IMG/VR virus record: IMGVR_UViG_3300015262_000001 | Span: 62,001 to 126,000 of that record | Origin: a virus | Direction: 5' to 3' (one strand) | DNA length: 64,000 nt | Shown here: positions 15,966 to 22,992 of the stretch, piece by piece | Position numbering within the stretch: the stretch's first letter is position 1 | Layout: each line of letters begins with the position of its first letter | Position numbers and translations under genes: made by a program | Notes under the pieces: model-generated | Databases searched by the model: none | Told to the model about the DNA's origin: nothing | Seen by the model: only the letters and a program-made list of their open reading frames with translations

Positions 15966-17498
15966 TTAAGCTCCGAGCAGGCGTTTCACGAGTTCGTTGA
16001 CTACCGCTACGGTCAGGCGCTCACGCTTGTCCATGACGTTGTCTTCTTTGCTCGTGTCCACGAAGGTGGCTTCAATGACGTCAGCCGTCAGAGTGGCACC
16101 ACAGGCACGCAGGAAGGCAGGGATCAGGGTGGTTTCCAGCAAGGTATCCAGACGAGGATCACCACCGTCATCAGGACCCACGCCGACTTCGATCACGTCG
16201 CCGCCGTTGAAACGTTCGGCCAGGATGTAATGCGCTTTCTCCAGCTCATTAGCGAACTTCGCCTGAACCCAGCTAATCAGCATCTGATTAGCACCGCGGG
16301 CAATGTTCGTGCGTTCCAACAGCTGAGGGCTCTCGCTGATGAAATCGAAGATCGCCTTGATGCCGCCCTTGATGAACAGATCACGCGACTGTACCGACAA
16401 CTTCTCGTGGATGTGATCGTAGTAAGCTTTGGCGTGAGCCTTGCCACGACCTACATCGTTGATGAAGTCAGTCACGGTCATCGTGTTACCGGTCAGGTTC
16501 GCCCAGTGGTAACCCATGATCGCTTCGGTGAAACCCGCTTGGGCCGATTGGATCTTGTCCAGCATGCTGTTAGTGTAGAACACCTTCAGCTTGGCTTGCA
16601 TGAAACGGGTATCACCGTACTGCGACTGGCTGTGTGGAGTCAGCGAAGCAGACTTCTCAGCTACGATCACCAGTTGACGCTGGCGGTAAACCGCTACCAC
16701 CGACTTCAGCTTGATGAGGTACAGGGTCATGCCGTTCCACAGCAGGCTGACGAAGCTGCGGTAGGTCGACAACTCACCCGTTACCAGCCAAGGCGCAGGA
16801 TCTTCGCTGAAGTACATCTTGGTCAACAGGACATACATCTTCAGCAGCAGAACGAAACGCACCGACTTGATCTGCGAGAAGTCGAAGATGCCGTCTTTGC
16901 TGACGAACAGGTTTTCCAGTTCACCGAAATCACCGATACGGCTGCAAGCGTCACCAATACTTTCGTCATCGTCTTCGAGGATGGCGATCAGGTCACCGTG
17001 AGTAGCCCCGATGAAATCGAGAACTTCCTTCTGATCAGGCCAGCGCCATTTCAGTTGGTTGAGGAGCTTCAGGTCAACACCGGTGTAGGTGATTGACTTG
17101 TCACGTACTTCGGTCGGATACAACGCCGATTCGAAGAAGCCGTTGTCCACGTTGATGTATTGCACGTCGATCAACTGTTCGGTCAGGCTTTGCAGTTGTT
17201 TACGCGAATACAGCAACTGAGTGTCTTTCAACACACGACGAGCCATCGGCACACCGTAGGTACGAATGTTACCCAGGGAGTCACGGATGATCTCGGCCAG
17301 ACGATCAGAGGCACCTTCGACGGCCTCGGTGTGCATGTTGCCTTGGCTGGCTTCCATGATCTCCTGACGGAAGTTGTCAGTAAAGGCCAGAGCGCCACCG
17401 GATTCACCATTGAGGCCGGCGATCACAGGACCAGGACGGAAGGTACCGCCGCCTACGGCGATCAGTTCGCCAAGTGCAATACTGGATTCGCGAATCAT
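15966..17498 (-). CDS. Probable virion structural protein, 510 aa
   Basis: 510 residues, predominantly helical in the middle and C-terminal parts. No enzyme motif is seen. The ATG overlaps the stop of the 58-residue gene upstream (ATGA), and its stop is 3 bases before the next start. The position between the protease and virion polymerase genes corresponds to phiKZ gp177-like virion proteins as I recall the order. The assignment as structural is by context. Confidence 0.6.
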   Translation of the reverse strand: MIRESSIALGELIAVGGGTFRPGPVIAGLNGESGGALAFTDNFRQEIMEASQGNMHTEAVEGASDRLAEIIRDSLGNIRTYGVPMARRVLKDTQLLYSRKQLQSLTEQLIDVQYINVDNGFFESALYPTEVRDKSITYTGVDLKLLNQLKWRWPDQKEVLDFIGATHGDLIAILEDDDESIGDACSRIGDFGELENLFVSKDGIFDFSQIKSVRFVLLLKMYVLLTKMYFSEDPAPWLVTGELSTYRSFVSLLWNGMTLYLIKLKSVVAVYRQRQLVIVAEKSASLTPHSQSQYGDTRFMQAKLKVFYTNSMLDKIQSAQAGFTEAIMGYHWANLTGNTMTVTDFINDVGRGKAHAKAYYDHIHEKLSVQSRDLFIKGGIKAIFDFISESPQLLERTNIARGANQMLISWVQAKFANELEKAHYILAERFNGGDVIEVGVGPDDGGDPRLDTLLETTLIPAFLRACGATLTADVIEATFVDTSKEDNVMDKRERLTVAVVNELVKRLLGA

Positions 17499-17671
17499 TT
17501 CGACGCTCCTTGTACACAGGCAACGATGGCCTTGCTGATCTTTTCATCCATTACGGATTCACCCAGCGGGGCAAGGAATTGCAACCCTACTTTGGCGAGG
17601 GTCCGCTTAACGACCTCCACGGTATTGGCGACCGTGACGATGTTGGTGATGAGTTGCTCTTTATCAGTCAT
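17495..17671 (-). CDS. Small hypothetical protein, 58 aa
   Basis: Short gene that is easy to miss: 58 codons from an ATG with AGGAG 9 bases ahead to a TGA that overlaps the next start (ATGA). The product begins MTDKEQLITNIVTVANTVEV and is a soluble, mostly helical protein with a mildly hydrophobic centre. The overlap at one end and the ribosome binding site at the other make it very likely to be real. It follows the endolysin gene in the same transcript. Function unknown. Confidence 0.7.
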   Translation of the reverse strand: MTDKEQLITNIVTVANTVEVVKRTLAKVGLQFLAPLGESVMDEKISKAIVACVQGASK

Positions 17672-17692: not shown

Positions 17693-18619
17693 TTAGAGTG
17701 GTGAAGGGCTGGAGACGCGGTTCTTGACCGACATCCCTTGGTAATACATGTCGTAGAGACGAGCACAGATCTCGCCCACGGTGATGTCACCATCCTTGTC
17801 AATGTCGAACCCGCTGTTTTGCAGATAAGACTTGGCTTCGATAGGGACAGGAGAATCTTTGCGGAACAGGACTTCGTCCGGACCTTTACCCACCGCAGCA
17901 GGATAGAAGATCGTCAGATAGAAATCCTCGAGACGTTTGTAGACCTTGCCTCGCTTCTGCCACATCTCGAAATACTTGAACACCAGATCAAGTTGATCCA
18001 GTTGGCTCATGGCCTTGACGTCGTCCAGGGTGATATTCAACCCGTACGTCTTGGACAAGTCGGTCACTGCCGCAGTACCGAACTGAATCAGACCGAAGTA
18101 GTTGCTACCGCCGTTGTTCTGTTTATCAGGACGGAAGGTACCGCCTGATTCAAAGCACATGCAGGCCATCAATGCAGAGGCTGCACCCGAGAACATGTTT
18201 TGTTTGCTGCACCAGTCGCGAACCTTCATGCTGAAAGCCGCTGGAACTCGCGTACTCCAACCGAGGTCGTAGAACGGAAGATTGTTGCGCTTGGAATAGC
18301 TGAACAACACCTGGCGCAAACCACCCAGGCTACCGTTACCTGGAATGCCATCCACTGCGCGGGCATAAAGACCAACCAGTTTCAAGTTGCTCTGGATATC
18401 TTTAACCGCTTGTACTGCAACATCGTAGCCAGCTCCTGAGGCAACAGGCAGGGGCACAGAGCGCCCCCCGTTGAGGAACAGGTGGTAGTCCTGAAACATC
18501 TTCAGGACCCCATCCCGACTTCCATTACCCCAGACACCGTCAATAGCGCCGGAGTAGACCTGACCCTCACCGAGGACCACCTGAATGTCTTTAACTCCGT
18601 TGACTGTCTGGAAGATCAT
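17693..18619 (-). CDS. Modular endolysin: two peptidoglycan-binding repeats, transglycosylase-like domain, EF-hand loop
   Basis: 308 residues. It would degrade the host cell wall at lysis. The N-terminus has two peptidoglycan-binding type repeats (about residues 8-47 and 70-110), each with the VKDIQ...G...AIDGVWGNGS pattern. The catalytic domain (about 125-250) resembles SLT-type lysozymes, with Glu157 in CFESGG as the likely catalytic acid and NYFGLIQFG about 17 residues later. Near the C-terminus is a complete EF-hand-like loop, D272 to E283 (DIDKDGDITVGE). There is no signal peptide, so release would need a holin. The N-terminal placement of the binding domains is typical of phiKZ, EL and OBP endolysins. 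It begins 3 bases before the end of the beta gene spacing, with AGGGG ahead of the ATG. Confidence 0.85.
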   Translation of the reverse strand: MIFQTVNGVKDIQVVLGEGQVYSGAIDGVWGNGSRDGVLKMFQDYHLFLNGGRSVPLPVASGAGYDVAVQAVKDIQSNLKLVGLYARAVDGIPGNGSLGGLRQVLFSYSKRNNLPFYDLGWSTRVPAAFSMKVRDWCSKQNMFSGAASALMACMCFESGGTFRPDKQNNGGSNYFGLIQFGTAAVTDLSKTYGLNITLDDVKAMSQLDQLDLVFKYFEMWQKRGKVYKRLEDFYLTIFYPAAVGKGPDEVLFRKDSPVPIEAKSYLQNSGFDIDKDGDITVGEICARLYDMYYQGMSVKNRVSSPSPL

Positions 18620-21600: not shown

Positions 21601-22992
21601 TTCACGAGCCTTCTCTTCCAGTGCTGCGGATACCCCACTTTCAAACGAGGTGAACGGGTCCTTCTTGATGGAGACTTCGCCAACCACTTTATCCTGTTCG
21701 AGCAGACGATCATCTACATGTGAGGTCCAGTCTTCAGTGCTTTCAGGATTTGTTCCGTCTCCCTCTTGTCCGGTCCCTTCATCACTTCCGTCGTCAGCTC
21801 CTTGACTACCACCGAAAGCATCACGGAGAGGATCAGGATGACCAGTAGTTCGCCCACCGTCATTTTTGCGAGGAAGCGTTCCTTCTCCGGATCCACCGGA
21901 TGTTTTACCTTTCCCTTTCTCAGCTCGCGACGCCTCTGCATCCAGGCGCCCAGCCGTCTCTGCTTCTTCTCCTCTTCCATCTTCCTTTTCCTCTTTTACC
22001 ACTTCCTCTTCCGAGACACCACCCCGGGTAAGGTTAAGCAAGGCCAGGTAAACACGTTTAGACGCATTCAAACGTTTACTGTGTTTCTCACGCTCGCTCT
22101 TTGGCGAGTCTCCATCCTTGGGCTTTGCTTTCGGATCCATTTCTGCATCCAACCACCCTTTCAGTGTACCGAGGTGAATTACCAGCGCACGACTGTTAAA
22201 CACAAAGATCAGGTGGAAATCTTCGATCGCTTTATCAGAAAGCTTATTTAGCAGACTGTATTCGTAGTCACCGAACAGGAAAGCCATCCAGTCCATCAAC
22301 CAGTAGGAACTTTCCTGCTTGGTGGTCCGTACAGTTTTGTTGCTGGCCAGTGGCTTACCGTCACGGAAGCTTTCAACGTAATGATCGTAGTCGACCATCA
22401 GTTCGGTAAACGACGGCATGTGCAGCGGCAGGTCAATGCGGTGGAACTGCTTGCGGCGTTTACCACGTTCAGCTTCTTCGTTAACACCGTCCATCAACAG
22501 ATTGAAGTGGTTGTAGAACCGCTCGAAGTTGATGAACAGAGAAGCCCGTGGATGCCAGAGCATATCGGCAAGACCGTAGCTCTTAACAATCAGAACCTTG
22601 TCCTTGTTGTAGACCGTGTTGATATCCTTGGTCCAGTTGTACTTGTAGTGCGAACCGCGATAACCCAGGATAACTTTACGAGGTTCGATCTGTACAGCAC
22701 GACCGCTACCAATCACCGGGGTGTACTTGGCCGGAAACTCGATAAACACTTCATCAGGGTAGTTGCTGATAAAGGCTTCGGAAATCGACGGGCCGATCTC
22801 TTGTGGGTTGTTTGGGAAGAAGTGAACCAACGAAGAACGTGGCAAGATGATCTCGCCAATCCCGATAAAGACAGGGGCGATCAACTCTTGACGCTTACGC
22901 TGTACAAAGGCGCGGTAGAACTGAGGATAGAGTGCTTCATCCCCCGTCACAGCGTCTAGGGGACTCAGCGTGTTCGCCGATGGGATATTCAT
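18622..22992 (-). CDS. RNA polymerase beta subunit, N-terminal and central part (virion polymerase, gp178-like)
   Basis: 1456 residues starting at the ATG at 22992 (MNIPSANTLSPLD); the open frame upstream belongs to the overlapping beta-prime gene. Beta-type landmarks: VEDQDTYEDSIAVSKE at about residue 1225 (matching NFEDSILVSE of bacterial beta) and, near the end, SDKYVIANQMKGTVNGVMKK followed by GGFNRMVLSF, matching the GDKxAGRHGNKGVIS and VPSRMNIGQ blocks. The protein ends there, so the C-terminal clamp part of beta is missing and is probably supplied by the 226-residue protein at 39003. Residues about 330-445 are a low-complexity acidic, glycine-rich linker that also hides another reading frame. 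Such split polymerases are packaged in phiKZ-like virions and transcribe early genes. Confidence 0.85.
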   Translation of the reverse strand: MNIPSANTLSPLDAVTGDEALYPQFYRAFVQRKRQELIAPVFIGIGEIILPRSSLVHFFPNNPQEIGPSISEAFISNYPDEVFIEFPAKYTPVIGSGRAVQIEPRKVILGYRGSHYKYNWTKDINTVYNKDKVLIVKSYGLADMLWHPRASLFINFERFYNHFNLLMDGVNEEAERGKRRKQFHRIDLPLHMPSFTELMVDYDHYVESFRDGKPLASNKTVRTTKQESSYWLMDWMAFLFGDYEYSLLNKLSDKAIEDFHLIFVFNSRALVIHLGTLKGWLDAEMDPKAKPKDGDSPKSEREKHSKRLNASKRVYLALLNLTRGGVSEEEVVKEEKEDGRGEEAETAGRLDAEASRAEKGKGKTSGGSGEGTLPRKNDGGRTTGHPDPLRDAFGGSQGADDGSDEGTGQEGDGTNPESTEDWTSHVDDRLLEQDKVVGEVSIKKDPFTSFESGVSAALEEKAREGSLSVAEQQFFMRKATQVYHIEMENGQSLAEYMEIKPEELKSLLSDAKIEGNFPTILDQSMLQSRAKVLKQGYVDKFLYKDIARMAVGIQNAGFALNDYKHEEIHGVEGSYDVMTMQVHHVDGEQSTHQVRFPKVNKDGSFTVDGVKSHLQLQRMELPIRKIDASTVLLTSHYDRQLMVTRSKKVVDDLGVWLKKQILLRAMADKDITLSRGNGRNRDYTGPRIYTILASRFQWINVGGYLLDFRIEKLLEEHPEFKKFTKPDMFLVGVKNKKPITIDSYGNLYLDGVEFNTFEGLMGINFSKAPNEHAVINISGFQFPLGVVLCYYFGIDDLLKIIKATTRSVPMGTRPKLADDEYAIQFNDEYLIFNRREKLTTLIFGGMPKLNNISNFSRSDLNNKGIWGPLMGDPKVRPSQFLEMNLLYKMFIDAITKDQLKRMGYSESFHYLLIDAAKLLETDYTPHEVELEEQRFVGYERFAGHYYKIMVGAARQYFNKGKGRKQKLEINPEAVIMSILKDTSVNRVEEVNPIHQLKDQEELTFGGTGGRSEITVVKRARVQLKSYRGKISEANKDSGKVGFVTYTTSDPQILDYRGNIDTKSKPSATSLYSVTGNLAFGMNKDDTKRGMFTSTQASQAVSAENYTMPITRTGYDNVIAQRTSELYSKVAKEDGKVTAVEEDYLEITYNDGTAEKYPLGLVIGEASGEYHRHTRVTDMKVGDKFTKGEVLGWDKQWFARDPFCPGQVVWLNGKQVRIALVEDQDTYEDSIAVSKEIMEESITPFLTKNTFAVDVDKVVTFKVKQGDQIDYDAILCEIEESHLAGAGDTNTQVGDINRLGIKQIRSKYHGQVVKIDVMYNSPVEKMSDSVRKLVATSDKERKRMSSIDGSVATGSVSNNLNVSKPVLSPGKILFTVYVESMDGSTTSDKYVIANQMKGTVNGVMKKPLMTQDGRVVDVKCSFKGGFNRMVLSFRDRLGTSELSVGVTKQAIAIYRGK
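21714..21980 (-). CDS. Candidate nested membrane protein inside the beta gene, 88 aa
   Basis: An 88-codon frame overlapping the beta gene in a different register, located exactly over the low-complexity linker. GAGG lies 9 bases before its ATG. The product is very basic at first (RRLGAWMQRRRELRKGKVKH), then has one hydrophobic segment of about 18 residues (42-59, VGELLVILILSVMLSVVV), then a charged tail: the layout of a single-span membrane protein with its N-terminus inside. Its codons end mostly in G or C over the hydrophobic part, whereas the beta-frame codons there end mostly in T. The endolysin gene follows in the same transcript, so a lysis accessory role is conceivable. It may still be a chance frame. 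Confidence 0.4.
   Translation of the reverse strand: MEEEKKQRRLGAWMQRRRELRKGKVKHPVDPEKERFLAKMTVGELLVILILSVMLSVVVKELTTEVMKGPDKRETEQILKALKTGPHM

Follow-up and report, generated by a model that had tools for sequence, protein, structure and literature searches.

A conserved overprinted gene, very probably encoding a small membrane protein, inside the virion RNA polymerase beta-subunit gene of EL-like and related large phages

The window, i.e. the whole stretch of 64,000 nucleotides analysed here, comprises bases 62001-126000 of a virus record of 228,597 bases. It contains a gene for a beta-type subunit of the virion RNA polymerase (vRNAP), whose nearest relatives in public phages are annotated as RNA polymerase beta subunit (EL, 56%; RisingSun, 54%; Miami, 44%); in OBP and N1M2, the homologue is annotated as virion-associated. 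An initial annotation had proposed that an 88-codon frame in another register spans the low-complexity linker of this subunit. We confirm this frame: it is the +1 frame of the beta gene, and it is fully nested on the same strand. The GAGG preceding its ATG, the hydrophobic span, the basic N-terminal half (14 K/R versus 7 D/E among residues 1-40) and the charged tail are all present as described; direct reading also bore out that third positions in the span are mostly G or C in the nested frame and mostly T in the beta frame. The coordinates of these and of further features are compiled in Table 1.

An endolysin-type gene lies directly 3' of beta in every carrier of the nested frame that was fetched. 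The N terminus of the window's endolysin has no apparent signal sequence or transmembrane (TM) segment. EL188 and OBPgp279 are characterised endolysins (PMC3352856). The 58-residue ORF 3' of the endolysin is matched by one of similar size at the corresponding position of the fetched relatives, even where the endolysin is absent (KTN4, Eowyn), and is therefore probably a member of the vRNAP/head cluster and not a lysis gene. The long antisense ORF opposite beta is not conserved as a gene and is probably an artefact of codon usage.

Table 1. Positions of the nested gene, its parts and signals, the surrounding frames and the separate candidate lysis genes (window numbering unless another record is named)
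Feature	Position	Strand	Remarks
Beta-type subunit of virion RNA polymerase, 1456 aa	18622..22992	-	codons 338-427, acidic low-complexity linker, contain the whole nested ORF
Nested gene, 88 aa plus stop	21714..21980	-	ATG start; TAG stop at 21714-21716; +1 frame of beta
Shine-Dalgarno-like AGAGGA	21989..21994	-	GAGG (21990-21993) ends 9 nt 5' of the ATG
In-frame TAA	21996..21998	-	six codons 5' of the nested ATG; f1 translation reads W*KRKRKM
Nested residues 1-40, basic helix-forming N-terminal half	21861..21980	-	conserved W13, R17
Nested residues 41-59, predicted single TM span TVGELLVILILSVMLSVVV	21804..21860	-	KD 2.57; AlphaFold2 helix; more hydrophobic than codon-resampled controls
Nested residues 60-88, charged helical tail	21717..21803	-	conserved R73, E74, E76, G85
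Neighbouring ORF in the same +1 frame, 77 aa	21480..21713	-	negative control; rates.130/.093/.365
Antisense ORF opposite beta, 761 aa	19192-21477	+	in codon register; 0-7 antisense stops in relatives
Endolysin-type gene	17693..18619	-	peptidoglycan-binding and lysozyme-like domain, sub-threshold Pfam hits
58-aa ORF 3' of the endolysin	17495-17671	-
Overlapping i-spanin-like and o-spanin-like lipoprotein genes	L064:670-1534 = G000:C1 about 194169-195033	+	lipobox ..MSGC
Two-TM protein, candidate holin	L064:1634-2362 = G000:C1 about 195133-195861	-	phrog_14084/11099, unknown function
EL spanin-like pair	NC_007623 115947-116661	-	gp111 (N-terminal TM) overlaps lipoprotein, lipobox LVGC

Within this genome, chance was assessed by keeping the beta amino acids fixed and resampling synonymous codons from the gene's own usage. 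By this measure, neither the openness of the nested frame (P(no stop)=0.87) nor an ATG with a Shine-Dalgarno (SD) sequence (P=0.36) is unusual; the hydrophobic span is (P=0.0013), as the sole significant feature of those tested. A basic +1 frame that is poor in stops follows from the acidic codons of the beta linker, and this lends some weight to a reading in which no protein is made and the pattern reflects codon bias of the linker or a structure of the RNA or DNA that is under constraint. Folding of the SD region is unremarkable (z -0.15), which speaks against this reading. As openness and start signals are not significant in this genome, the case for a gene rests on comparison.

In six close relatives, the substitution rates at beta codon positions 1/2/3 are.253/.145/.092 inside the ORF versus.086/.050/.293 outside. 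The fast position inside the ORF is beta position 1, which is the third position of the nested frame, where the order 3>1>2 is the ordinary one of coding sequence. Suppression at synonymous sites of beta, proposed as a check of the interval, is strong: third-position divergence falls from 0.29 to 0.09. A blind sliding scan of the entire beta gene found the lowest 89-codon windows of the position 3/position 1 ratio to start at codons 331-337, the ORF itself starting at 337-338, and the position pattern of variable columns is inverted over the ORF (chi-square P=5e-17). The switch is repeated in RisingSun-like contigs (.296/.146/.096 inside versus.077/.047/.320 elsewhere), in the N1M2-Sureiya pair (Fisher P=6e-8) and in the Vibrio 2TSL-PDCC-1 pair (P=4e-4), i.e. 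in four lineages in total. Moreover, identity over the linker is higher in the nested frame (f1) than in the beta frame (f0) in 10 of the 10 relatives compared. The earlier suspicion that the nested frame is the one under selection is thus substantiated: codon-position periodicity indicates purifying selection in this frame, the hallmark of an overprinted gene, and the comparison supports a linker in which the nested frame is more constrained than the beta frame. Over nested residues 63-88, constraint is about equal in both frames, which is consistent with the conserved EW..VDD-type beta motif found there. The neighbouring ORF in the same +1 frame served as a negative control: its substitution rates follow the normal pattern of beta, and it is not conserved as a gene and was rejected.

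A database-wide comparison led to the same picture. IMG/VR contains 26 loci that encode beta relatives. Wherever they cover the linker, down to about 53% beta identity, the +1 frame is open, and its product consists of a basic N-terminal half followed by a hydrophobic span and a charged tail, whereas frame +2 over the same linkers is full of stops. Related genomes thus hold an open frame with start and stop, as befits an overprinted gene. A tblastn search of phage records with the window's nested protein alone gave no match because the sequence has diverged too far, so that profiles were needed. Profile A1, built from 17 nested proteins and searched against whole phage genomes, matched the held-out genomes of Miami (7e-11), 2TSL (4e-9), OBP (5e-8), AerS_266 (1e-7) and N1M2 (6e-7), in each at one significant place only, which was always the nested frame in beta; the whole genomes of KTN4 (phiKZ type), SPN3US and Deimos-Minion gave no match. 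In 9 of 9 held-out phages, the f1 profile outperformed the f0 and f2 profiles derived from the same DNA. Three-base periodicity in the nested frame (slow positions 1 and 2, fast position 3) in four lineages, the higher identity of f1 than of f0 and f2, and the matches of the held-out profile are not what codon bias or nucleic acid structure would produce; the reading without a protein, to which we give hardly any credence, is effectively refuted.

By means of tblastn with lineage-specific nested proteins, 60 public records carrying the nested frame were found, GenBank/RefSeq duplicates counted: EL-like phages (9), Petsuvirus-like phages and allies (14), Vibrio/Photobacterium phages (15), Aeromonas phages (7+4), Miami-like phages (7), RisingSun/Joad (3) and FishSpeaker (1). 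All matches in annotated phage records fall within beta, with no free-standing homologue among them, and no homologue was found in bacterial and archaeal genome contigs. In none of the records whose annotation was examined is the nested ORF annotated as a gene. On a midpoint-rooted beta tree, the carriers form a single clade, outside of which stand Deimos, Proteus 10, KTN4, SPN3US, Kwan, pVa-21, LucasX and Eowyn, all without the nested gene. Relatives with a broken nested frame, which would have spoken against a gene, were sought within the clade; in every member examined it is open, even in Aeromonas phage D6 (L062), which is diverged. In D6, the frame is open for 120 codons and has a hydrophobic span, its profile score being below threshold; it looks like a strongly diverged or decaying copy. 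The span of L017 is weak (KD 1.44). Given the absence from phages of the phiKZ, SPN3US and Deimos types, the tree is compatible with one overprinting origin, and a single event followed by retention would be the simplest history. The frame would then have arisen once, in the ancestor of the clade comprising EL, RisingSun, Miami, the gorgonviruses (Vibrio), OBP-Petsuvirus and the Aeromonas jumbo phages, and since then the nested protein, and not the polymerase linker, would have been the constrained product.

The arrangement of ribosome binding site and ATG recurs among the relatives. At the corresponding position, most of them have AAAGAGGA or a better SD sequence, and L004, 2TSL and pTD1 have a perfect GGAGG; in N1M2, Sureiya and AVP1, the SD sequence is weak and the nested start is ambiguous. 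The position of the stop is common to nearly all EL-type relatives. The in-frame TAA shortly upstream of the ATG favours internal initiation and disfavours a frameshift from upstream beta sequence as the origin of the product. Given the recurrent SD-ATG pair and the near upstream stop, we infer that the nested ORF is translated from its own start: ribosomes would initiate internally on the beta mRNA, at signals lying within codons of the disordered linker.

The predicted product is a single-pass inner-membrane protein of 80-105 residues. W13, R17, S56, E74 and G85 are invariant across 15 sequences (IMG and window). AlphaFold2 models a TM helix at residues 42-67 with a pLDDT of about 90, the flanking helices being of lower confidence (mean pLDDT 68). 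An excess of K/R N-terminal to the TM segment in nearly all members suggests that the topology is probably N-in; the basic amphipathic N-terminal half would thus be cytoplasmic, followed by one TM helix and a short charged helical tail outside. Searches with the nested protein against Pfam, PHROGs, NCBIfam and PDB profiles gave only noise, and so did Foldseek with the AlphaFold2 model, whose only BFVD match was a 'holin' (E=6.9). Leaving its role aside, we consider it highly probable that the overprinted gene and its membrane protein are real; at the level of sequence comparison, the gene, its frame, the TM segment, the restriction to a single clade and the constant place are established.

With respect to function, the initial annotation had considered a lysis or membrane role conceivable. 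The membrane part of this proposal stood, and so did the endolysin neighbour; a lysis role was not established. It is nevertheless the single most likely role, if a tentative one, ahead of functions with the vRNAP, virion or early vesicle and of functions at the host membrane. The nested protein, inferred to be made late, would be a membrane-active protein of the lysis pathway, either a holin or a lysis-timing partner of the adjoining endolysin, and by its late build-up would open the inner membrane, or gate it, for the cytoplasmic enzyme. An endolysin that lacks an apparent signal sequence or TM segment needs a holin, and the nested protein, like single-TM holins, is small, has a predicted TM helix and is encoded beside an endolysin. 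The presence of the endolysin-type gene next to beta in all fetched carriers contrasts with that of a wall hydrolase in 2 of 8 non-carriers; yet these two, Deimos-Minion and Proteus phage 10, have the hydrolase after beta and no nested gene, and the association is confounded by common descent. In addition, the nested protein matches no holin family profile.

A further argument against a holin comes from a separate locus, which extends over 194.2-195.9 kb in the window's phage (G000) and 115.5-116.7 kb in EL. Here, the i-spanin-like protein of the window's phage consists of an N-terminal TM segment and a coil and is encoded in an overlapping pair with the lipoprotein; convergent with this pair is the gene of the two-TM protein, whose EL counterpart is gp109. 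Weak matches to an Rz-like spanin (E=0.023) and to a holin (E=0.057) were obtained for the cassette of the window's phage. EL gp110 seems to be annotated from an internal start, which removes the lipoprotein signal, the true start lying upstream. In OBP and N1M2, two copies of the two-TM protein are found in one frame. This would be the more conventional lysis cassette and the two-TM protein the more natural holin. The nested protein need therefore not be one, and this is why the lysis role is rated no higher. A spanin is not indicated either, as the nested protein has no lipobox and only 29 residues after its TM segment.

Two other roles are possible, each somewhat less so than lysis. The protein may be a membrane partner of the vRNAP or of the early infection vesicle, produced together with the vRNAP and the head proteins, perhaps packaged and tethering the injected polymerase or DNA to the inner membrane. 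In every carrier, the protein is encoded within the gene of a vRNAP subunit, with head and vRNAP genes around it, and its N-terminal half is basic; however, phages of the phiKZ and SPN3US types inject a vRNAP too and lack the nested gene. Equally conceivable, and equally uncertain, is an effector at the host membrane, acting in superinfection exclusion, the sensing of membrane depolarisation or counter-defence. Such tasks are common for small single-pass membrane proteins, and fast yet constrained evolution with conserved W, R and E positions would fit; on the other hand, PHROGs, Pfam and NCBIfam gave nothing above noise, and genes of this kind usually lie in variable early regions and not at a fixed late locus throughout a clade.

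On balance, we lean towards a clade-wide overprinted family of membrane proteins in vRNAP beta that serves infection, be it in lysis timing or in tethering of the vRNAP or early vesicle, with the beta linker persisting partly to carry it; its function would have been overlooked because annotation suppresses overlapping ORFs. For large phages, a conserved overprinted membrane gene within a subunit of a multisubunit-type RNA polymerase appears to be undescribed within the open literature searched, subscription papers and preprints lying outside that scope. It would add a conserved protein, missed by annotation, to the well-studied phages EL, OBP, RisingSun and N1M2. One practical consequence is that two genes would be affected if the vRNAP beta linker were mutated or truncated.

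Small membrane proteins encoded by overprinting are already known, examples being phiX174 E, MS2 L and Rz1; gene E is nested in gene D, and L overlaps the coat and replicase genes. Like E and L, the nested gene lies out of frame within an essential phage gene and encodes a small membrane protein; as in L, the N-terminal half of this protein is basic and a hydrophobic segment is present. The differences are that E and L, from tiny and compact genomes, are single-gene lysis proteins, whereas the nested gene resides in a 228-kb phage that has an endolysin and candidate spanins and where it is thus not the sole lysis gene; there is no sequence match to E or L, and its lysis activity is only putative. 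To class III type single-TM holins, it is similar in size, the single TM segment, the likely N-in/C-out topology and the endolysin next to it, but it has no family match, the genome holds a rival two-TM candidate and the function is, again, only putative. Overlapping Rz/Rz1 spanins (PMC6139136) are likewise envelope-protein genes overlapping on the same strand in tailed phages; the nested protein differs from them in its missing lipobox, in having only about 29 residues after the TM segment and in having a polymerase subunit as host gene. The nested gene resembles overprinted viral genes (PMC8227390) in what appears to be its origin, a frame that arose de novo where an older protein is disordered. 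It differs from them in its host frame, which encodes a subunit of a multisubunit-type RNA polymerase in a large DNA phage, where genome compression is not an obvious reason for overprinting.
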